Source of the DNA: Pseudanabaena frigida
GTDB taxonomy: Bacteria; Cyanobacteriota; Cyanobacteriia; Pseudanabaenales; Pseudanabaenaceae
Reading direction: 5' to 3'
Assembly: GCA_003242085.1 (NCBI GenBank)
Contig: QBML01000005.1
Coordinates: forward strand, 172,261-236,260
DNA: 64,000 nucleotides
The position numbers and the translations under genes were made by a program. This document shows, in pieces, positions 29,492 to 62,656 of the stretch (the first letter of the stretch is position 1; every line of letters starts with the position of its first letter). The notes beneath the pieces were generated by a model, which had not been told where the DNA came from, did no database searches, and was given only the letters and a program-made list of their open reading frames with translations.

Positions 29492-30013
29492 TTAGCCTAC
29501 TGATGCTGCTGCTTTATCGAAGTAGCTAGATAGTTCTGCGATAAGAGAGCTACAATCGCCACGAGTAACGCCATTAGGATCGTTAGCAATTGCGATCGCT
29601 GCATTCTTCATCTTTTCGATGCCAACTGCAACTGATCCACCAGGTACGCCCAATGCGCTGTAGGTTTCACGCAAACCGTTAAGGCAACGATCTTCCAAAA
29701 TGCTAGCATCGCCAGAGAAGATGGCGTAGGTTACATAGCGAAGGATGATGTCCATATCGCGAATACATGCAGCGATACGACGGTGGGTATAAGCATTTCC
29801 ACCAGGAGCAATCAATTGAGGTTGATCGTCAAACAAAGAGCGAGCTGCATCAGTTACGATCGCTGAAGAGCTGGATGTGATGCGATTAACAACATCCAAA
29901 CGCTTTGTCCCATCTGCAACTACTTGCTTCAATGCATCAATTTGAGAATCGGTTACATAAGCACCGCGAGTATCTGCCTGAGCAACTACTTTAGTAAAAA
30001 CATCAAGAGCCAT
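29492..30013 (-). CDS. cpcB: C-phycocyanin beta subunit
   Basis: CpcB carries two phycocyanobilins. The 173 residues include Cys83 in [17 protein letters not shown] and Cys154 in [16 protein letters not shown], the two attachment sites, and Asn73 in APGGNAYTH, the residue that is usually methylated. A third Cys at 110 is also conserved. ATG at 30013 is preceded by TAGGAGA nine to ten nt upstream, a strong site fitting high expression. It is the first gene of the cpc operon and has a long leader. Confidence 0.97.
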
Positions 30014-34430: not shown

Positions 34431-35171
34431 TTATACGGCGAAATCAAACAGCATGGTGGTCATATACCGCTCAGTCCATTCTGTGCCAAAGGACTTTTCG
34501 AGAACACGACGAGTTTTATCATTTTGCTGTTGCTTCTCGCAGTAATAGCGCTGACCAGCCAAAATTTGATCGATTTCTAAGGAAGTCGTTAACGGCTCAG
34601 TCGCAACCGCTAGCTGACAATGCAAAGTCAAATACTCGCGTACTCTTTGCAAGAAGTTAGCCTCTTCGCGATCGCCCATTGGACGCACAAACAAACAAAA
34701 ATCTGAAAAGATATCGCCCCATTGCGGCAACTCACGAGTCTGCTCAAAATGCATCGCAGGCAAATTTGACAAAGCATTGTGATAACTACGAGGTAAAGCG
34801 CGTTCGGGATGCACAGGAGATAGATCGGCGATCGCCGCACTAATACTTCCTCTTCCACCAACTAAGTCGGCTCCAAAAATAGGAATGCCATATTCAGGAT
34901 TAGGAAACATGACGCAGTGCAAAATATCTAACCCACTTCCAACTCTGGCTAGCTCTAAATGAAGCTTCCGAAATTGGGGTGTGCTGTAGCAATGATTTTC
35001 AATGACGAGACGCTCGCCTTCTAAAGCCCCTTCCACATAGCCTAGATCCTCTGGAACTTGATAAGGAGACAAATCTAGGTTTTCTCGCCATACCGATTCG
35101 ATACAGTTGGCTAAGTTGTGAATTAAGGGATATTGTTGCTCTCGCAGCGACGCTTGTGTGGCTTGAGTCAT
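34431..35171 (-). CDS. pcyA: Phycocyanobilin:ferredoxin oxidoreductase
   Basis: PcyA reduces biliverdin IX-alpha to phycocyanobilin with four electrons from ferredoxin, supplying the pigment for the cpc products. The 246 residues carry Glu73 (LELARVG), His85 (LDILHCVMFP) and Asp102 (FGADLVGGRG), which match Glu76, His88 and Asp105 of the well-studied enzyme with a constant offset of three. FDFAV at the end is normal. It lies on the same strand as the cpc operon, 5 kb upstream, with the ATPase/TPR pair between. Confidence 0.95.
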   Translation of the reverse strand: MTQATQASLREQQYPLIHNLANCIESVWRENLDLSPYQVPEDLGYVEGALEGERLVIENHCYSTPQFRKLHLELARVGSGLDILHCVMFPNPEYGIPIFGADLVGGRGSISAAIADLSPVHPERALPRSYHNALSNLPAMHFEQTRELPQWGDIFSDFCLFVRPMGDREEANFLQRVREYLTLHCQLAVATEPLTTSLEIDQILAGQRYYCEKQQQNDKTRRVLEKSFGTEWTERYMTTMLFDFAV

Positions 35172-52988: not shown

Positions 52989-53444
52989 TTAAGAAACTGG
53001 CGATCGATTAATCAAAACCCAATAAAAGCCTAACTGTTCAACAGCTTTGTTAAATTGTTCAAAATCAACAGGCTTAACAATGTAACTATTCACCCCCAAT
53101 TTGTAACTTTCGATGACATCACTATCTTGAGCAGAAGAAGTCATTACTACAATGGGAATCATTTGAGTGCGCGGATCGGATTTCAGTTGTCGTAAAACTT
53201 CTAACCCACTAACCTTAGGTAACTTTAAATCCAACAAAATTACTTTGGGATGATTTGTGATTTGACGATGGTCATAGATCCCCCGACAAAAGATAAAATC
53301 AAGTGCTTCTGCACCATCCGTTAATAACTGAATATCATTAGTAATTCTACCTCGACGTAAGGCTCGAATCGCAAGCTCAGCATCAGCAGGATTGTCTTCC
53401 ACTAGCAATATAAAAACAGTTTGCTCAGAGATTAAGTCGGTCAT
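52989..53444 (-). CDS. Rcp1-type single-domain response regulator
   Basis: A 151-residue stand-alone receiver with the acid pocket VEDNPADAE, phospho-acceptor Asp about 72 in VILLDLKLPKVSG, and Lys about 125 in SYIVKPVDFEQF. The long loop after the third strand (FCRGIYDHRQITNHPK) is that of the Rcp1 group, which are the partners of cyanobacterial phytochromes. It is the last gene of the three-gene signalling operon, 70 nt after the histidine kinase stop. It has no output domain, so it probably shuttles phosphate to another protein. Confidence 0.9.
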   Translation of the reverse strand: MTDLISEQTVFILLVEDNPADAELAIRALRRGRITNDIQLLTDGAEALDFIFCRGIYDHRQITNHPKVILLDLKLPKVSGLEVLRQLKSDPRTQMIPIVVMTSSAQDSDVIESYKLGVNSYIVKPVDFEQFNKAVEQLGFYWVLINRSPVS

Positions 53445-53514: not shown

Positions 53515-56454
53515 TTATTGATCAGGAATCATAAAGTAAAAAGTCGCTCCTTGATTAATAGCTGCGTCTGCCCAAATGCTTCCTCCATGCCGTTGAATAA
53601 TACGTTGGACGATCGCTAGTCCAATGCCAGTACCTTCAAACTCATTTTCGAGATGCATTCTTTGAAACACACCAAACAATTTGTCGGCATATTGCATGTC
53701 AAACCCAGCCCCATTATCGCGGATAAAGTATACTCCTTTGGCATCAATTACTTGATAACCAATTTCAATTCGTGCTTTTTCAGTTTTACTCGTGTATTTG
53801 ATTGCATTTGATAACAGATTGACCCAAACTTGGGTTAACAAAGAAATATCAGCTTCACAGTCTGGCAAATCGTCAACGAGTAACTCAATTTGCTGCAATT
53901 CTATTGCTGATGAAAAGTCAGTTAGGATTTTGTGAATCAGATTGTTCATAGAGAGCCTTTGCCGTGAAAGTTCTTTACGATTCAGTCGTGACAAGTTTAA
54001 GAGATCGTCAATCAACTCACCCATGCGTTTCGCATTATCACGCACAATTTTGAGATAGCGATTACCTTCGCTGTCTAAGCGATCGGCATAGTCTTCTTGT
54101 AATATTTTTGAAAATCCATTGATCGCTCTTAACGGAGCGCGTAAGTCATGGGAAATAGAATAGGAGAAAGATTCTAGCTCTTTATTCGCCGCTTCTAGCT
54201 CTGCGGTGCGTTGCGACACAAGATTTTCCAGTTGTTCGTTGAGATACTGTAAAGATTGTTCGTTTTGGCGGAGGTTAATGACAAGTTCACTTTGAAATAT
54301 AGCTATACTCAATTGGTTTGCTAATTGCAATAAAAATTTGATTTCAAATGGTAACCAATGACGTGGGCGATCGCATTGATGGACAACTAATAATCCCCAA
54401 AGCCGATCGGCTTGCAAAATTGGCACAATGATGTTTGCTTTGACATCAAATTGTTTAAGAAAATCAAGATAGCAAGGTTTAAGCTCGCAGTTATCGATGT
54501 CATTAATAATACTGGTATGCCCTTGAATATAATCATCTATACAAGCTGGAAAGCAAGGATCGAATATTTTAAAACCGATTAAAGCTGGATAGGAGGAAAC
54601 CACAGATTCCTCAACAATATCACCTGTTAAATCAGGATTAAATTGGTAAATAAATACGCGATCGGTGTGGAGAATTTTCTGGATTTCGATAACTGTTCTG
54701 TGCAGAATTTCTTTGAGTTCAATCGATTGACGGATGTTTAATGTGACTTCTGCAAAAATTTCTGTACGTTGATTTTGTTCGCGTAGAGCTTGAGTTCGTT
54801 CTTGAACTCGTAATTCCAAAAGTTCATTTGCTTGATTGATTTCTCGGAATTTCTGCTGCAAACTAGAAGACATGGATCGGAAATTCTTGATTAATATTAC
54901 TAACTCCGTAACTGAGCTTCTCAGCCAATAGATTGGTTCTTGATCTAGGAGCTTATTTGGCAAGTTGGTGGTGATTTCGGCTAACTGGAGTAACGGTTTT
55001 GCTATTTGACGACTGACAAGGGTTGCCGAAATTAGTGCTAATGCCGACACCAGTAGCAGTACCGCCATGTTGCGGGTGTGAATACGTTCAATTTGTTGGA
55101 CATAAGGAGTTGCGGCTATCTGTACGATCATTGTCCAAGGAAAATTTGTATTTAATTTAAACTCTTTTATAAACTGAGATTTTTGCCACTGAACCATCAC
55201 TAGATAGCTAATTTTAACAGGAAGTAAATGGTAAGATTTTTCGTCAATTTGACTGATTTTGCCATCCTTACGCCAGTCAAATTTTGGAATGCCAATTAAT
55301 GCTGGTTCGGTGCTAGAAGCAACGGTTTGCTGTTGATCTAGCAGCAAAATTTCTAGGTTTTCTTCACTCAAACTAGACTGAAATAAATTTGTCAGTTTGC
55401 TTAAATCTATCTCGCTTAAAACTGCACCGACGAATTTACCATCATGTTTGATTGGCACACCTAATAGAGCGATTGGGAATTTAGATTTATCAGGCTGAAA
55501 CTTTACAGGCGAGAGAATAGGCTGAGGAGATTTCTTAAGCTGCTCGAAATAGTCATTTTGATTAAAAGCGCTTTCAACTATCGTATTATCACTGTTAAAA
55601 TCAAAAGCAGTAGTTCCTGTCTCATCTAAAATATAAATATGTTTGAAATCAGGAAAGTTAAGTCGCGTAAATGCAGCTCTTTGACGAATTAAATTGTCCT
55701 GTATTGGTGCAGTTGATGCTAATTCGGCAAGTCCGTTTGCCGCCACTAACCGTCTTTCATACCAGCCTTGTACTTCGACAGTTAAATAACGCGATGCATC
55801 ATTTAGATCTAAGCGAACTGTATTTTTGATGTCATCAACGACCTGATTGCTTGAAAAGACAATTAACAAAAGTGTTGGGATTGAGACAAATAAAACTAAT
55901 AAATTAAAAAGAGTTTGTTGTAATGATAAGGTGTTGATAGCGGCAGATCGTTTTACCCAATGATGAATTGGCAAGTGAGTAAGCATTAAACTTGCCATGA
56001 GGGCATTAAAAATCCCATTGACAGGTTGCTTCATTAAAATAATCAAAACTTGGGTTTGATCGATCTTTAAAAAGACCCCGTAAAATAGCCAGACCAACGG
56101 CATTCCCATTACCAGCCAAAAAAGAGCATCTAGCAAAACAATATTATTTTGCTGTCGATTGTGAAATAACCATCCGACAAATAAGGCTTCGGCGGTAAAG
56201 GTTACGGTGGTATAGGGATGATGCCAAATTACATAAGTACAATATCCCGCAATAAATCCTGCTAAGGTTCCCCATCTAACCCCATAGAGACAAACAACAA
56301 TCCAAACCGCGATCGAACCAAATATAAAATCAATGTCAAAAAATAATGTCCAGCGACAATAGTTGCCAAGAAATCCTGCGATTATAAGGATAATTAAGGC
56401 GATCGCTTGGCGACTGAGAGACATCCTTGATTTCAAACTTTTTGTTAAGTTCAT
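53515..56454 (-). CDS. Membrane histidine kinase with a cyanobacteriochrome-like GAF
   Basis: The 979-residue kinase has about seven hydrophobic segments (15-165, MASE-like), an eighth at 180-200, an extracytoplasmic sensor (about 205-455, double-Cache-like), another span (462-480), a HAMP-like linker, a coiled coil (525-565), GAF (about 570-725), then HisKA with His769 in YSISHDLRAPLRAI and HATPase (NLLSNAIKYT). In the GAF, DPCF at 632-635 and Cys661 in KPCYLDFLKQFDVKANIIVPI match the DXCF-type cyanobacteriochrome pattern, though Tyr replaces the usual His after Cys661. Its stop is 14 nt... counting from the giant kinase, its start is 14 nt after that gene's stop. Confidence 0.85.
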   Translation of the reverse strand: MNLTKSLKSRMSLSRQAIALIILIIAGFLGNYCRWTLFFDIDFIFGSIAVWIVVCLYGVRWGTLAGFIAGYCTYVIWHHPYTTVTFTAEALFVGWLFHNRQQNNIVLLDALFWLVMGMPLVWLFYGVFLKIDQTQVLIILMKQPVNGIFNALMASLMLTHLPIHHWVKRSAAINTLSLQQTLFNLLVLFVSIPTLLLIVFSSNQVVDDIKNTVRLDLNDASRYLTVEVQGWYERRLVAANGLAELASTAPIQDNLIRQRAAFTRLNFPDFKHIYILDETGTTAFDFNSDNTIVESAFNQNDYFEQLKKSPQPILSPVKFQPDKSKFPIALLGVPIKHDGKFVGAVLSEIDLSKLTNLFQSSLSEENLEILLLDQQQTVASSTEPALIGIPKFDWRKDGKISQIDEKSYHLLPVKISYLVMVQWQKSQFIKEFKLNTNFPWTMIVQIAATPYVQQIERIHTRNMAVLLLVSALALISATLVSRQIAKPLLQLAEITTNLPNKLLDQEPIYWLRSSVTELVILIKNFRSMSSSLQQKFREINQANELLELRVQERTQALREQNQRTEIFAEVTLNIRQSIELKEILHRTVIEIQKILHTDRVFIYQFNPDLTGDIVEESVVSSYPALIGFKIFDPCFPACIDDYIQGHTSIINDIDNCELKPCYLDFLKQFDVKANIIVPILQADRLWGLLVVHQCDRPRHWLPFEIKFLLQLANQLSIAIFQSELVINLRQNEQSLQYLNEQLENLVSQRTAELEAANKELESFSYSISHDLRAPLRAINGFSKILQEDYADRLDSEGNRYLKIVRDNAKRMGELIDDLLNLSRLNRKELSRQRLSMNNLIHKILTDFSSAIELQQIELLVDDLPDCEADISLLTQVWVNLLSNAIKYTSKTEKARIEIGYQVIDAKGVYFIRDNGAGFDMQYADKLFGVFQRMHLENEFEGTGIGLAIVQRIIQRHGGSIWADAAINQGATFYFMIPDQ

Positions 56455-56467
56455 TTTTATCTACAAC

Positions 56468-59400
56468 TTAGTCAGGAATCGTGAAGTAAAAAGTCGCGCC
56501 TTGATTAACTGCTGCCTCAGCCCAAATACGCCCGCCGTGACGTTGAATGATTCTTTGCACAATCGCTAGTCCAATGCCAGTACCTTCAAACTCGTGTTCT
56601 AGGTGCATTCTTTGAAATACGCCAAACAATTTGTCGGCATATTGCATGTCAAACCCAGCTCCATTGTCGCGGATAAAGTATTGGGTTTCGTCATCAACTA
56701 CTTGATAGCCAATTTCAATGCGAGCGTTTGTAATTTTACTTGTGTATTTGATCGCATTTGATAATAGGTTGAGCCAAACTTGGGTTAACAAAGAAATATC
56801 AGCCTGACAATCGGGCAAATCAGCTACTATGAAGTCGATTTGGCGATCTCCGATCTCTGATTCTAAATTGCTTAATAACTTTTGGATAAGTTGATTTACC
56901 GAAATAGAACGACGAGTTATTTCTTTACGGTTTAAGCGCGATAAATTCAAGAGATCGTCAATCAATTCGCCCATGCGTTTAGCATTGTCGCGCACAATTT
57001 TGAGAAATCTACTGCCTTCAGAATTTAAGCGATCGCTATAGTCTTCTTGCAAAATACGGGAAAATCCATCGATTGCCCGCAGCGGTGCACGCAGGTCATG
57101 GGAAACAGAATAGGAGAAAGATTCTAATTCTTTATTAGCGGATTCTAGCTGAGCCGTACGTTGAATTACCCGATTTTCCAGCGATTGATTGAGTTGATTT
57201 AATGCCTCATTAGCGGCTTTGCGTTGCAATTCTGCTGATGCTCTCGCTGCAAATACTTTTAGTAGATTACGCGCACGTTGAATATCTTGGAGCGGATTGA
57301 CATCAAGGATACAAAGATTCCCAATCGAATTTCCATCAGCATCTTGAAGAGCAATCCCCAAATACCCATCTGCTTGCATATTGACCAAATCGATATCTTC
57401 AGGAAACATCTGCTGCACCAAGCGATCGCAAATAAATTCTCCATCTTGCAATGCTCGCTCGCAAGGTGTACGAGCGGGAAAGTATTTGGCATGTGGTTTT
57501 ATTGCACCATGCGCCCAAAATGCCAAAGGATGGAGTTGTTCTTCAAATAGCTCTGTGACTAGTGCATACTTGACATGCAGTGCTTCGGCGATATGCCGCA
57601 CCAAGGCAGGGAAAAAGTCATCGCCTGTGACTGCCGCAGTGCCAGCAACTAAATTTTGCAACGTCATTTCCGATCGCATCAGTGCCGCTTCCCGTTCTTT
57701 TGCCTCGCTAATGTCGCGCATGATCGTAGAAATATATTCCAACTCTCCATTGGGTGATTTATGCGCGATAATCATTTGCGAAACTGGGATCTCTATTCCC
57801 TCATGGGTTAATAGAGCTGTTTCTCCTATCCATGTGCCATGTTGGAGTGCAGCGGGAATACCTTGATTTCTAATAATTTCTAAAGCCCATTCGGGGTGAT
57901 AAGTTGGAATGTTTAACTTGGAAACATCTGCATCGGGTGCTAATCCTTGGATTTTATTCGCCTGAGCATTATTCCAAAGTACTTTCCAATCTGGAGAAGA
58001 CATACCGATAATATCGGTTGAGGCTTGAATGATTGCGATCAAGCGATCGCGTTCTTTTTCGGCTAGTTGGCGATCGTAAATTTCTGCTTGTAAGGACTGA
58101 TTTAACTCAGCTTGCTGCTTTAATAATCTGGATTTAACGATCGAAATCGCAGCTTGAGTTGACAGTAAATTCAGAATCTCTAAGCGCTCAGGTGTAAATG
58201 CATCAGTGATGAGATTATTCTCTAGAATTACGATCGCTGTCAGGTTCCCCTGATTTAGCAAAGGCATACATAGGACTGATTTCAATTGGTGTTGTACGAT
58301 CCAAGGATCGTTTTGGAAATCACCAACTTGAGTTGCATTATTGAGAACAATTCTCTCTTGGGTACGGATTACATAATTAATTAATGAAATGGGAACTAGA
58401 GAAATTGGCGAGAAGTAGCTACCTGTAGAAGTTAGATCGATGGGAATCGACTGCATGACCGAAACATTCTCATCGTTAATCATCTTAATTGCTTCAATAC
58501 GCCATTCACTATGACTTAATACGTGACTTGATAAGTCATTTGGTAATAGTAAATAACCAGTCTGCGCTCCAGCATTCTCAATCAAAATATTCATTAAAGC
58601 AGATAAAAGTCGATCGAGATGGATTTCATTATTAATGGCTTGAGAAGCTCGCAACACGGCATCTAGATCGAGGGATTCTAACTTATTTGAAGATGATTGC
58701 GTAGAGATAGATTTACGCGAACTTTTATTGACTGAAGCTGTTGTTAAAATTTCGGCATATTTATTTTCAAGCTGCTGAACTTTTGCTGATGCTCCCCATT
58801 GTAAATAGCAATATCTCGCTTCTTGCATATAGACTTTCGCGATCGCAACTCGATTTTGAGCTAAATAAAACTTTGCAGCTAGCTCATTAGCTAATGCTTC
58901 TTCTTGGATATAGCCATTCTGTTTGGCTCCTGCGATCGCTAAGTCATAGGCTTCCATTGCTTCTAATATTTGTCCTAATACCCGATAGCGCTCGGCTTCA
59001 ATTAGATGCCATTTATGTAAATAGTTCATCGGTGCACGATCTGCCCAGAGTCTGATCTTTTCCTGATTAGTGTTTATTTCGATCGTAGTCTGTTCGCGGT
59101 CCGCGATCGCCAGATCGCCATAGCTGGCTAATCTCGTAAGAGTGTCGTAAAAATAGAAGACTACATAGGATGTTAGACCAATAGCCGCATCCTGATAGAG
59201 ACTCACTTGGGAAGCATTATCGATTGCTTGGTTATAGTTCTCAAATAGATAGCAAAGAATTAGTTGATTGAGATGTAACATGTGTAGCGAGCTACGATCT
59301 CCAGTTTGTATATGGATTGGCTGCATAGTATCTACGTTGTAGATTTCACCTATTAACTGACATGGATCTTGGGAATTCCCTAGAAGATTTAAGATGCCTT

Positions 59401-62400
59401 GGTGATATATTAAGAGCCAATCTAGGGTTGTTTGTTGCTTTATCTGTCTAATCAGGGTTCCATAGTTTGATATTTCCAGTACGAGACCTCCTAATTCTTT
59501 GCCCATAAAGTAAAGATGATGGCAGTGTAGGCATAAACCATAGGCGGCAAATTCGTAATCACCTATTTCAATCCCGACTGTATAAGAATTTAATAGAGGC
59601 TGCACAGTCTCTTGTAGATGATATTTCCAGTGATTGACAAATACATTAACAATGACCAGTGTTTTTGCTCTTAAATCTTGAGCCTCAAGACGTTCTAACA
59701 ATCCTAAAGCTAGTTGACCAAATTGAAACCCAAGCTCCATTTGATTCATCAGTCCGCAGAGAATCAATCCACAAGATGCATATCCATAGGTCGATCCCTG
59801 TGCATTCCCTTTAGCGATCGATAACTTGACTAATTGCAATACAACCAAAATATATAGCTCTGGAGAAGCCACATATGCAGCCGCAGCGATACTTAAAAGG
59901 ATGCTAACTGCTGCCAATGGGATGGGTTCTGTCATCAATGGCAGTTCTAATAAATCTTCAATACGATGCAGTGTAAGGATTTCTTGAAAATTTTGTAGAG
60001 CCAATCCCACATCTGTTTGAGAAGGTTGCGTCGGTAATTCAATCTCTAATAGTTTTAAAGTATCAACGCCAATTCTAATCGCTTCTAATCTCTGGTTTTT
60101 GGCAACAAATGCTTGAATCTGAACTTCGTAGACTCCGATCTTATCTAATAAAGTTTTGGCGCGGTCGAAAATAACTGTTGCCCAATCTTCCATTCGCTCA
60201 AAATCACCATTTAAAAAGGCCGCCTCTACGGCTAACTGATATAGGTCTAGCGATAGCTCGTATTGATTCTGCCAGCTTAATTCGGTGAGTAACTGCACTC
60301 CAGTTTTTGCATAGTTTAGCGCGGCACCATAAGCAGTTGAAGCTTTGGCTTTCTGGCTGGCTAAAAGGTTGAGTTGAGCAAGTTGTTCGCGCTCTGTCTG
60401 ACTTGAAATTAGATCTAAGCCGAGATTGAGTTGATTGACAATATCAAAAATTTTTGATTCAAGTTCCGAAGGTGAAGTGTTTTTGAGGAGCTGCTGTCCG
60501 ATTTTTTGGTGGATTTCGGCTTGATTAGCATCAGGAATCAGTGAGTATGCAGCTTGCTGAATCCGATCGTGCACAAATTTATAGGCGATCGCACAGTGCT
60601 TATTAGTTAGCTCAATGGCATAATGAATCGACTGATGGGCATTACTAAGTGGCAATATCAATCCTTCGGCGATCGCATCTTTGAGAGCACGAACAGTCTG
60701 GACGTGGGATAACTCTGCTCCTAGAGAGAGTGTATCGAGATCGAACTGATTGCCAATACAAGCTGCAATTTGTAATAAATGCTGGGCGCGATCGCTAAGT
60801 TTTTGGATTTTCCCAGTCATCAAGCTCACAACGTTATCCGTTATTCCTCGTTCTTGAATCTGGGCAATAGACCATTGCCACTGGCACAATTGATAATCAA
60901 ATCTAATTAATTTCTCGTCATAAAGAGACTTTAGAAATTCATTGATAAAGAAGGGATTGCCTCCTGTCTTTTGTTGCACTAGTTGCGCTAGAGATCGAGA
61001 ATCTGTCTCGGAGCAATGGAGAGTATCAGCAATTAGTTGATTGATATCTGTGAGATTCAGTACTGACAAGGAAAATTTATCAATCTCTCCTCCATTTAAC
61101 TGCTGAATATTATCAACCATTTGCATCATCGGATGAACGGTATTTACCTCATTATCTCGATAGGCTCCGATTAAAAGTAAAGATTGTTTGGTGATTGTGG
61201 TTGCTAATATTTCTAGCAGTCTTAAAGAAGCACGGTCTGCCCATTGCAAATCGTCTAAAAAGATCGTCAGTGGATGCTCTGGCTGAGCAAAAACACGAAT
61301 AAAGTTCTGAAAAACGCGATTAAATCGATTCTGGGCTTCACTAGCGAGTATATTTGTTGATATTGCAGGTTTATCAGTTTGTTTGCCAATAATCATTGCC
61401 AGTGATGGAATTACTTGCGTAATGATGTGACTGTTTGCTCCCAATGCTGCGATCAGTTGCGATCGCCATTTATCTAAACTATTTTCACTCTCAGTAAGTA
61501 ATTGCTTGATCAATCCCTGAAAAGCTTGAATGATTGCTAAATAAGGAATATTTCGTTGATATTGGTCGAATTTACCAGATATAAAGTAGCCTCGGCTTTT
61601 GGCAATTGATTTGTGGATCTCTTGCACTAATCGTGATTTACCAATCCCAGAATAGCCAGATACTAAAATCATCTCAACGCGATCGCTATCCTCATTAATT
61701 GCGGCAACCCTAGAGAATGCTGCTAGTAAACCCTCAATTTCTTTCGTTCTGCCATATAGCTTTTCGGAAATCAAAAATTTATCGGCGATATCCTGTTGTG
61801 CTAATGCAAAAGGTTCTATTCTGCCACTTAGTTGCAACTGATTTAGACAATAATCCAGATCTGCTTTGATTCCCCACGCACTCTGATATCTCTCTTCAGC
61901 AGTCTTGGCTAATAATTTCAGTACTATCTGTGACAGGATTGGTGGAATTTCGGGATTAATTAAATGCGGGGCGATCGGTTCTAGAGCTAAATGATGATGA
62001 ATTAGCTCCAGAGGATCGTTAGATTCAAATGGTAAGCGTTGAGTTAATAGTTGATAAAAAGTTACTCCCATCGAATAAATATCCGTGCGGTAATCTAGCG
62101 ATCGATTCATCCGCCCCGTTTGCTCGGGCGATATGTAAGCTAAAGTTCCTTCGATTACTTCCTTATGGCTGAATACTAATGTTTCTCTCCGCAAAGTAGA
62201 AGCAATTCCAAAATCGATTGTTTTTAATTGAGTAGTTTCGGGATTAAAAACTATATTTGATGGATTAATATCTTTGTGAATAATATTAGCTGCATGGATT
62301 TGACCTACGCTTTCACTAATCTGAGATGCTAAGGTTAGAGCTTCCATTAAACTTAGCTTTCTCATCGCTATAATACTGGCTAGAGAAGCTCCACCAAAGT

Positions 62401-62656
62401 CTTCTAATATAATTGCAAAGCTATTCTGATGTGGGGTCAAATCATAGGCATTAACAATAAGATTTGACGCAAGACTTTTGGTAATTTCGTACTCTAACTT
62501 ATATCGACCTATTATTTCGGATGTAGGAAATTCCGAATTTAGGAATTTAAGGATTACAGGTAAGTTGTCTTGCTGACGAATGCCTCGATAAACTTGCGAG
62601 TTTGAACTTTCATACAGTTTTTCAATAACTCGATATTCAGGGATATTTACCATCAT
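56468..62656 (-). CDS. Giant Ser/Thr kinase-ATPase-histidine kinase hybrid
   Basis: The 2062-residue protein begins with a Hanks-type kinase domain (1-275): Lys37, the catalytic loop HKDINPSN (Asp129) and DFG at 148-150. A STAND-like AAA ATPase (about 300-510) follows, with Walker A VSGYSGIGKSRLV and LTIFLDDLQWADR, then a long TPR-like helical region (about 700-1330), a GAF (about 1370-1560), PAS (about 1600-1730), a second GAF (about 1735-1890 overlapping the linker) and HisKA/HATPase (His near 1853). This plan is that of the two-kinase hybrids of filamentous cyanobacteria. Its last 250 residues are a near copy of the next gene's. Substrates are unknown. Confidence 0.88.
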   Translation of the reverse strand: MMVNIPEYRVIEKLYESSNSQVYRGIRQQDNLPVILKFLNSEFPTSEIIGRYKLEYEITKSLASNLIVNAYDLTPHQNSFAIILEDFGGASLASIIAMRKLSLMEALTLASQISESVGQIHAANIIHKDINPSNIVFNPETTQLKTIDFGIASTLRRETLVFSHKEVIEGTLAYISPEQTGRMNRSLDYRTDIYSMGVTFYQLLTQRLPFESNDPLELIHHHLALEPIAPHLINPEIPPILSQIVLKLLAKTAEERYQSAWGIKADLDYCLNQLQLSGRIEPFALAQQDIADKFLISEKLYGRTKEIEGLLAAFSRVAAINEDSDRVEMILVSGYSGIGKSRLVQEIHKSIAKSRGYFISGKFDQYQRNIPYLAIIQAFQGLIKQLLTESENSLDKWRSQLIAALGANSHIITQVIPSLAMIIGKQTDKPAISTNILASEAQNRFNRVFQNFIRVFAQPEHPLTIFLDDLQWADRASLRLLEILATTITKQSLLLIGAYRDNEVNTVHPMMQMVDNIQQLNGGEIDKFSLSVLNLTDINQLIADTLHCSETDSRSLAQLVQQKTGGNPFFINEFLKSLYDEKLIRFDYQLCQWQWSIAQIQERGITDNVVSLMTGKIQKLSDRAQHLLQIAACIGNQFDLDTLSLGAELSHVQTVRALKDAIAEGLILPLSNAHQSIHYAIELTNKHCAIAYKFVHDRIQQAAYSLIPDANQAEIHQKIGQQLLKNTSPSELESKIFDIVNQLNLGLDLISSQTEREQLAQLNLLASQKAKASTAYGAALNYAKTGVQLLTELSWQNQYELSLDLYQLAVEAAFLNGDFERMEDWATVIFDRAKTLLDKIGVYEVQIQAFVAKNQRLEAIRIGVDTLKLLEIELPTQPSQTDVGLALQNFQEILTLHRIEDLLELPLMTEPIPLAAVSILLSIAAAAYVASPELYILVVLQLVKLSIAKGNAQGSTYGYASCGLILCGLMNQMELGFQFGQLALGLLERLEAQDLRAKTLVIVNVFVNHWKYHLQETVQPLLNSYTVGIEIGDYEFAAYGLCLHCHHLYFMGKELGGLVLEISNYGTLIRQIKQQTTLDWLLIYHQGILNLLGNSQDPCQLIGEIYNVDTMQPIHIQTGDRSSLHMLHLNQLILCYLFENYNQAIDNASQVSLYQDAAIGLTSYVVFYFYDTLTRLASYGDLAIADREQTTIEINTNQEKIRLWADRAPMNYLHKWHLIEAERYRVLGQILEAMEAYDLAIAGAKQNGYIQEEALANELAAKFYLAQNRVAIAKVYMQEARYCYLQWGASAKVQQLENKYAEILTTASVNKSSRKSISTQSSSNKLESLDLDAVLRASQAINNEIHLDRLLSALMNILIENAGAQTGYLLLPNDLSSHVLSHSEWRIEAIKMINDENVSVMQSIPIDLTSTGSYFSPISLVPISLINYVIRTQERIVLNNATQVGDFQNDPWIVQHQLKSVLCMPLLNQGNLTAIVILENNLITDAFTPERLEILNLLSTQAAISIVKSRLLKQQAELNQSLQAEIYDRQLAEKERDRLIAIIQASTDIIGMSSPDWKVLWNNAQANKIQGLAPDADVSKLNIPTYHPEWALEIIRNQGIPAALQHGTWIGETALLTHEGIEIPVSQMIIAHKSPNGELEYISTIMRDISEAKEREAALMRSEMTLQNLVAGTAAVTGDDFFPALVRHIAEALHVKYALVTELFEEQLHPLAFWAHGAIKPHAKYFPARTPCERALQDGEFICDRLVQQMFPEDIDLVNMQADGYLGIALQDADGNSIGNLCILDVNPLQDIQRARNLLKVFAARASAELQRKAANEALNQLNQSLENRVIQRTAQLESANKELESFSYSVSHDLRAPLRAIDGFSRILQEDYSDRLNSEGSRFLKIVRDNAKRMGELIDDLLNLSRLNRKEITRRSISVNQLIQKLLSNLESEIGDRQIDFIVADLPDCQADISLLTQVWLNLLSNAIKYTSKITNARIEIGYQVVDDETQYFIRDNGAGFDMQYADKLFGVFQRMHLEHEFEGTGIGLAIVQRIIQRHGGRIWAEAAVNQGATFYFTIPD

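Follow-up and report, generated by a model that had tools for sequence, protein, structure and literature searches.

The window analysed here, a stretch of 64,000 nt from Pseudanabaena frigida, encodes a sensor histidine kinase whose GAF domain carries two cysteines arranged much as in DXCF-type cyanobacteriochromes (CBCRs). This raises the questions of whether the domain is a bilin-binding light sensor, a possibility put forward in an earlier note, which photocycle it would follow and how the domain relates to the kinase and receiver genes around it.

Architecture and genomic context of the kinase

The kinase, its domains and its immediate neighbours are located in the window as follows.
52989..53444, minus strand: single-domain response regulator of 151 aa, expected phospho-acceptor Asp72 (ORF, Pfam)
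53515..56454, minus strand: sensor histidine kinase of 979 aa (ORF, Pfam, hydropathy)
53521..53850, minus strand: HATPase_c, residues 869–978, carrying strings for the N, G1 and G2 boxes (Pfam, motif)
53980..54174, minus strand: HisKA, residues 761–825, expected phospho-acceptor His769 (Pfam, motif)
54298..54720, minus strand: CBCR-type GAF, residues 579–719 (PF01590, E 8e-23; best solved matches are CBCRs)
55276..55830, minus strand: dCache_1-like sensor domain, residues 209–393 (Pfam, 42 bits, below the cut-off of 45)
56468..62656, minus strand: upstream hybrid of 2062 aa, Ser/Thr-kinase/AAA/GAF/histidine-kinase (ORF, Pfam)

This membrane histidine kinase consists of four N-terminal hydrophobic segments, the dCache-like domain, a fifth hydrophobic segment (residues 463–481 by hydropathy), a linker, the GAF, HisKA and HATPase. 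Pfam detected no PHY domain in the 979 aa, indicating that this is not a PAS-GAF-PHY phytochrome; the two PHY matches of the genome are on other contigs. The named proteins closest to the whole kinase are those of Pseudanabaena sp. FACHB-1998 (86 %) and P. biceps O153 (81 %). The hybrid gene ends 13 nt before the start of the kinase gene and the receiver gene begins 70 nt downstream of it; as all three lie on one strand and are separated by gaps of this size, they likely form one operon. The kinase core of the hybrid is 80 % identical to that of the target kinase, with 78.5 % identity between the DNA of the two cores over 717 bp.

Relationship of the GAF domain to cyanobacteriochromes

The best solved matches of the GAF were 8k9o (3e-41), 6oap (6e-40), 7ckv (2e-35), 6bhn (1e-30) and 3vv4 (3e-24), which are CBCRs, with 8k9o and 7ckv representing RcaE and 3vv4 representing TePixJ. 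Cys634, Cys638 and Cys661-Tyr662 are all retained in two full-length orthologs (L033, the same as L004, and L034, the same as L005), and Cys634 and Cys661 are also present in the two next-nearest GAFs and hence in 5/5 clade members, target included. The dN/dS ratio was 0.11–0.16 among the three orthologs and 0.11–0.19 in comparisons with L114, indicating purifying selection. Since the entire domain is homologous to CBCRs and the cysteines are kept in relatives, the pairing of DPCF with a downstream cysteine is not a chance occurrence.

A careful tree of 60 rows placed the target in a five-member clade (support 100/99) nested within a group of 29 rows (99/98), of which 24 have DPCF. RcaE was the nearest characterised row and joined the five-member clade weakly (91/63). 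Eight rows, mostly long-branched, were left out of this tree (TePixJ, 6bhn, L147, L148, L011, L167, L120 and L032), and because TePixJ was among them the tree gives no placement of the target relative to it. In a quick tree of 68 rows TePixJ stood alone, and support for the group containing the target was lower (86, or 82 with RcaE). Both trees exclude rows shorter than 130 residues and a small number of second GAF repeats. In a search of the family (38 genomes), the GAFs listed besides these (E up to 1e-40) were at most 49 % identical to the target GAF, and among the matches listed from 386 genomes of the phylum, in a search that scored at most nine candidates per genome, GAFs outside the clade were at most 51 % identical.

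The GAFs of L009/L114 and L010/L145 belong to hybrid kinases of ~1970 aa from two further Pseudanabaena genomes. They share DPCFxxC and a spacing of 27 residues with the target GAF, to which they are 64–67 % identical, and they have the same neighbours, a receiver gene and a CHAT gene. They differ in having C-H rather than C-Y and in being joined, with their kinase core, to a Ser/Thr-hybrid kinase rather than to a Cache kinase. The L010/L145 GAF also contains six extra residues, an apparent in-frame duplication (LQTDQLLQTDQL) just past the VVPI strand, which is absent in L114.

Sequence motifs and pocket residues

Three sites within the GAF are central to its assignment.
54469..54474, minus strand: Cys661-Tyr662, with Cys661 the canonical bilin-attachment cysteine (motif, alignment)
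54541..54543, minus strand: Cys638, an extra cysteine beside a one-residue deletion (alignment, 5/5 clade members)
54550..54561, minus strand: DPCF, residues 632–635, with Cys634 the DXCF second cysteine (motif, alignment)

The cysteine of DPCF is expected to form an adduct with C10 of the bilin. Cys634 and Cys661 are 27 residues apart, close to the usual 28, and KANIIVPI stands after Cys661-Tyr662; both features had been pointed out previously and are borne out here. Alignment with the TePixJ GAF (3vv4) gave identical residues at five positions, with Asp632, Cys634, Tyr642, Cys661 and Asn674 corresponding to D492, C494, Y503, C522 and N535, and the expected dual-Cys chemistry would be common to both proteins. 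TePixJ, however, has a spacing of 28, C-H and His498/Trp499 at the propionate, whereas the target has a spacing of 27, C-Y and Cys638 together with the deletion; in addition, H523 is replaced by Tyr662, Q526 by Phe665 and R507 by His646. Both orthologs have Arg at position 646, where the C-H pair within the clade has Gly and Ala. TePixJ is named as a methyl-accepting protein, while the target is a histidine kinase.

Features of two other CBCR classes were absent. WXDXXL, given in the available text of PMC11284453 as the defining motif of extended red/green (XRG) CBCRs, does not occur around Asp632, where Ile630 and Phe635 stand in place of Trp and Leu. Insert-Cys CBCRs carry their second cysteine in an inserted loop, according to the available text of PMC5240096; the aligned motif region of the target has no insertion and its second cysteine lies within DPCF. 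An AlphaFold model built from three sequences had a pLDDT of 42.2, which is too low to judge pocket geometry.

Variation among dual-cysteine GAF domains

The sample of GAFs consisted of 71 distinct CBCR-like domains from the loci analysed (66 with the motif region in a first alignment) and 80 further stretches chosen from the listed rows of the phylum search outside these loci. After realignment of these 151 GAFs, the motif region was present in 148, three were set aside and 117 were classed as dual-Cys (D-x-C-F/L plus the canonical cysteine). The residue after the canonical cysteine was His in 65 and Tyr in 52 of the 117, and C-Y was found in 20 of the 61 dual-Cys GAFs from the 80 later stretches; these fractions are not phylum-wide rates because sampling followed similarity to the target GAF, and one Pseudanabaena family with C-Y is heavily represented. 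Tyr662, which the earlier note had read as a deviation from the usual His, is thus not an anomaly. An engineered example of such a tyrosine is described in the available text of PMC6336887, where H87Y of miRFP670nano, whose parent has His, stacks on biliverdin bound to Cys86. A Tyr after the bilin cysteine is compatible with a covalent bilin and need not mean loss of binding, although miRFP670nano is silent on photoconversion because it was evolved for fluorescence. Spacing between the two cysteines was 28 in 103 of the 117 GAFs, with the remainder at 27 (six), 29 (six), 30 (one) and 33 (one).

Genes for bilin supply

One gene for bilin synthesis is present in the window, outside the kinase operon.
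34431..35171, minus strand: pcyA, phycocyanobilin:ferredoxin oxidoreductase (PF05996; NF002760, 334 bits against a cut-off of 206; ORF)

The host genome has four bilin reductases, including this PcyA, and two heme oxygenases. The NCBIfam comparison covered the bilin reductase of the window (contig C55); an adjacent pair on contig C20 may be pebA/pebB, and a further reductase on contig C5 appears PcyA-like by eye. An ORF at window positions 29492–30013 appears from its sequence to encode phycocyanin beta.

Predicted photochemistry and alternative readings

Homology, tree position, purifying selection, retention of the cysteine pair and the host's bilin genes back the suggestion of a DXCF CBCR, and the GAF is very probably a covalently bilin-binding member of this known type. 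Covalent binding, colours and photocycle are predicted here from characterised relatives. The GAF would take up phycocyanobilin, with Cys661 attaching it to ring A, and Cys634 would add to C10, probably with isomerisation of phycocyanobilin to phycoviolobilin. The resulting dual-Cys adduct would give a blue-absorbing dark state, and light would then flip C15=C16 and cause release of Cys634, producing a green- or teal-absorbing state. DXCF chemistry is described in the available portions of PMC11284453 and PMC6955287. We lean towards this classical blue/green cycle, against which count the missing residue in the propionate stretch and the presence of Phe665 for Q526 and His646 for R507 relative to TePixJ, as well as the tree, where among characterised proteins RcaE comes nearest, albeit through a weak join.

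A bilin-binding CBCR that departs from the classical blue/green DXCF photocycle has a lesser but appreciable chance of being correct. The changes at the propionate site, along with Tyr662 and Cys638, might shift the colour pair, keep the chromophore as phycocyanobilin or tie up Cys634. Such a departure is consistent with the occurrence of the deletion and Cys638 in 5/5 clade members and with a range of DXCF photoproducts from teal to orange (PMC6628166, available text), but the DXCF motif and canonical cysteine are intact and five of the pocket positions compared agree with TePixJ. Conversion of the GAF to a dimerisation, linker or small-ligand domain without bilin binding is improbable, as both cysteines are kept in 5/5 clade members under purifying selection, even though in some related kinases the corresponding slot, between the Cache part and the kinase core, lacks a GAF (L036–L038) or is occupied by a GAF that is not of the CBCR type (L035). 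A green/red protochromic sensor like RcaE or CcaS is highly improbable: RcaE, a green/red CBCR, is named as a histidine kinase and is both the best solved match (3e-41) and a weakly supported sister in the tree, but it has QEVF without the DXCF cysteine, Leu past the canonical cysteine and Lys at the position of Asn674, and the protochromic triad of RcaE/CcaS, E217, L249 and K261 (Glu/Leu/Lys), is replaced by Pro633, Tyr662 and Asn674 at the aligned places of the target.

For the preferred DXCF photosensor, we infer that the signal would run via the linker to His769 of the HisKA/HATPase core and then to Asp72 of the receiver as phosphotransfer partner, and that this light input would be integrated with the stimulus perceived by the dCache-like domain. 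Among the papers listed in a literature search on Pseudanabaena, none was a CBCR study by title.

An additional cysteine beside a one-residue deletion

The target GAF is unusual in two respects, the loss of one residue between its cysteines and the presence of Cys638, which the earlier note does not mention. Cys638 lies four residues after Cys634 and is invariant in the five-member clade. The spacing of 27 reflects the loss of one residue between Cys634 and Tyr642, in the same stretch as Cys638, and this missing residue falls in the stretch aligned with H498 and W499 of TePixJ, which bond to the B-ring propionate according to the available text of PMC6955287. Deletion and Cys638 occur together in 5 of the 117 dual-Cys GAFs (target, two orthologs, L114 and L145), and since these five are close kin the invariance of Cys638 is weak evidence. 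A sixth GAF with a spacing of 27 (L187) has no cysteine in this column.

A cysteine in the Cys638 column without the deletion was found in the dual-Cys GAFs L179, L208 and L239, which hints at repeated origin, and also in two GAFs lacking DXCF (L011 and L222). In L179, L208 and L239, from three other genomes, the extra cysteine lies five residues past the DXCF cysteine. The column thus contains Cys in 3 of the 112 dual-Cys GAFs that do not belong to the clade, compared with a mean of ~1 in 112 over the 157 well-filled columns left after exclusion of 634 and 661, a mean that comes mostly from Cys694 (110/110). Recurrence outside the clade is weak evidence, because six of the 157 columns reach at least three cysteines and three others among them reach eight.

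A thiol in the alpha 3 region is also a feature of AM1_1186g2, a dual-Cys CBCR of the red/green lineage in which, as described in the available text of PMC6628166 and PMC5240096, a cysteine in helix alpha 3 adds to C10 of the bilin. AM1_1186g2 differs from the target in that this alpha-3 cysteine, and not a DXCF cysteine, is its second cysteine (PMC6628166, available text). Judged by the substitution names printed for it and by the aligned 6bhn row, its Cys2510 would fall in the column of Tyr642, four positions past Cys638. Cys638 is therefore flanked by the DXCF cysteine and the presumed place of Cys2510, two positions whose thiols reportedly add to C10. A three-cysteine CBCR, in which Cys638 forms the C10 adduct of the other photostate or a disulfide with Cys634, is a speculative reading and unlikely to be correct. 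The deletion would bring Cys638 into register, and Cys634, Cys638 and Tyr642 (i, i+4, i+8), if helical, would form one stripe that could face the bilin, while a Cys634–Cys638 disulfide would let redox state set the colour of the sensor. Among the papers listed in the literature searches, made in part with optional terms and with many unrelated matches, no title concerned a third cysteine in a CBCR.

The receiver gene and the sensor slot in related kinases

The downstream receiver gene had been described as Rcp1-type and as a pointer to a phytochrome. The gene is present, but the best solved matches of its product were 5ic5 (8e-42) and 5brj (8e-41) rather than the Rcp1/RcpA/RcpB structures (1k66, 3e-25; 1jlk/1i3c, 1e-24; 1k68, 3e-24). 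Its use as a mark of a phytochrome is ruled out by L036, L037 and L038, in which the same Cache kinase is followed by a close relative of the receiver but has no GAF, and by L034, in which the GAF-bearing kinase stands amid unrelated genes and the 18.9-kb locus yielded no receiver. As the GAF-less kinases keep it, the receiver tracks the kinase rather than the light sensor. A Cache kinase with a CBCR GAF followed by the receiver was observed in the window and in L033, while in L035 the Cache kinase, likewise followed by a close relative of the receiver, contains a different, non-CBCR GAF in its slot. This GAF of L035 resembles one GAF of the adjoining hybrid kinase.

The tandem kinase cores of FACHB-1998 (L033:6945-11694) share a 696-bp tract with 95.5 % identity (97 % of residues). 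The identity of these cores to their counterparts in the window is 79 % for the hybrid and 76 % for the target kinase. This contrast between 95.5 % within the pair and 76–79 % to the window indicates probable gene conversion between the cores of FACHB-1998, and exchange of this type is a plausible route for shuffling sensors.

On the ordinary reading, the GAF is a further probable blue/green light sensor. Participation of Cys638 in bilin or redox chemistry, if true, would make the domain a redox-gated light sensor with a natural third thiol close to C10. The locus itself presents one sensor-kinase slot in which the light-sensor domain is present, absent or replaced while the receiver mostly stays.
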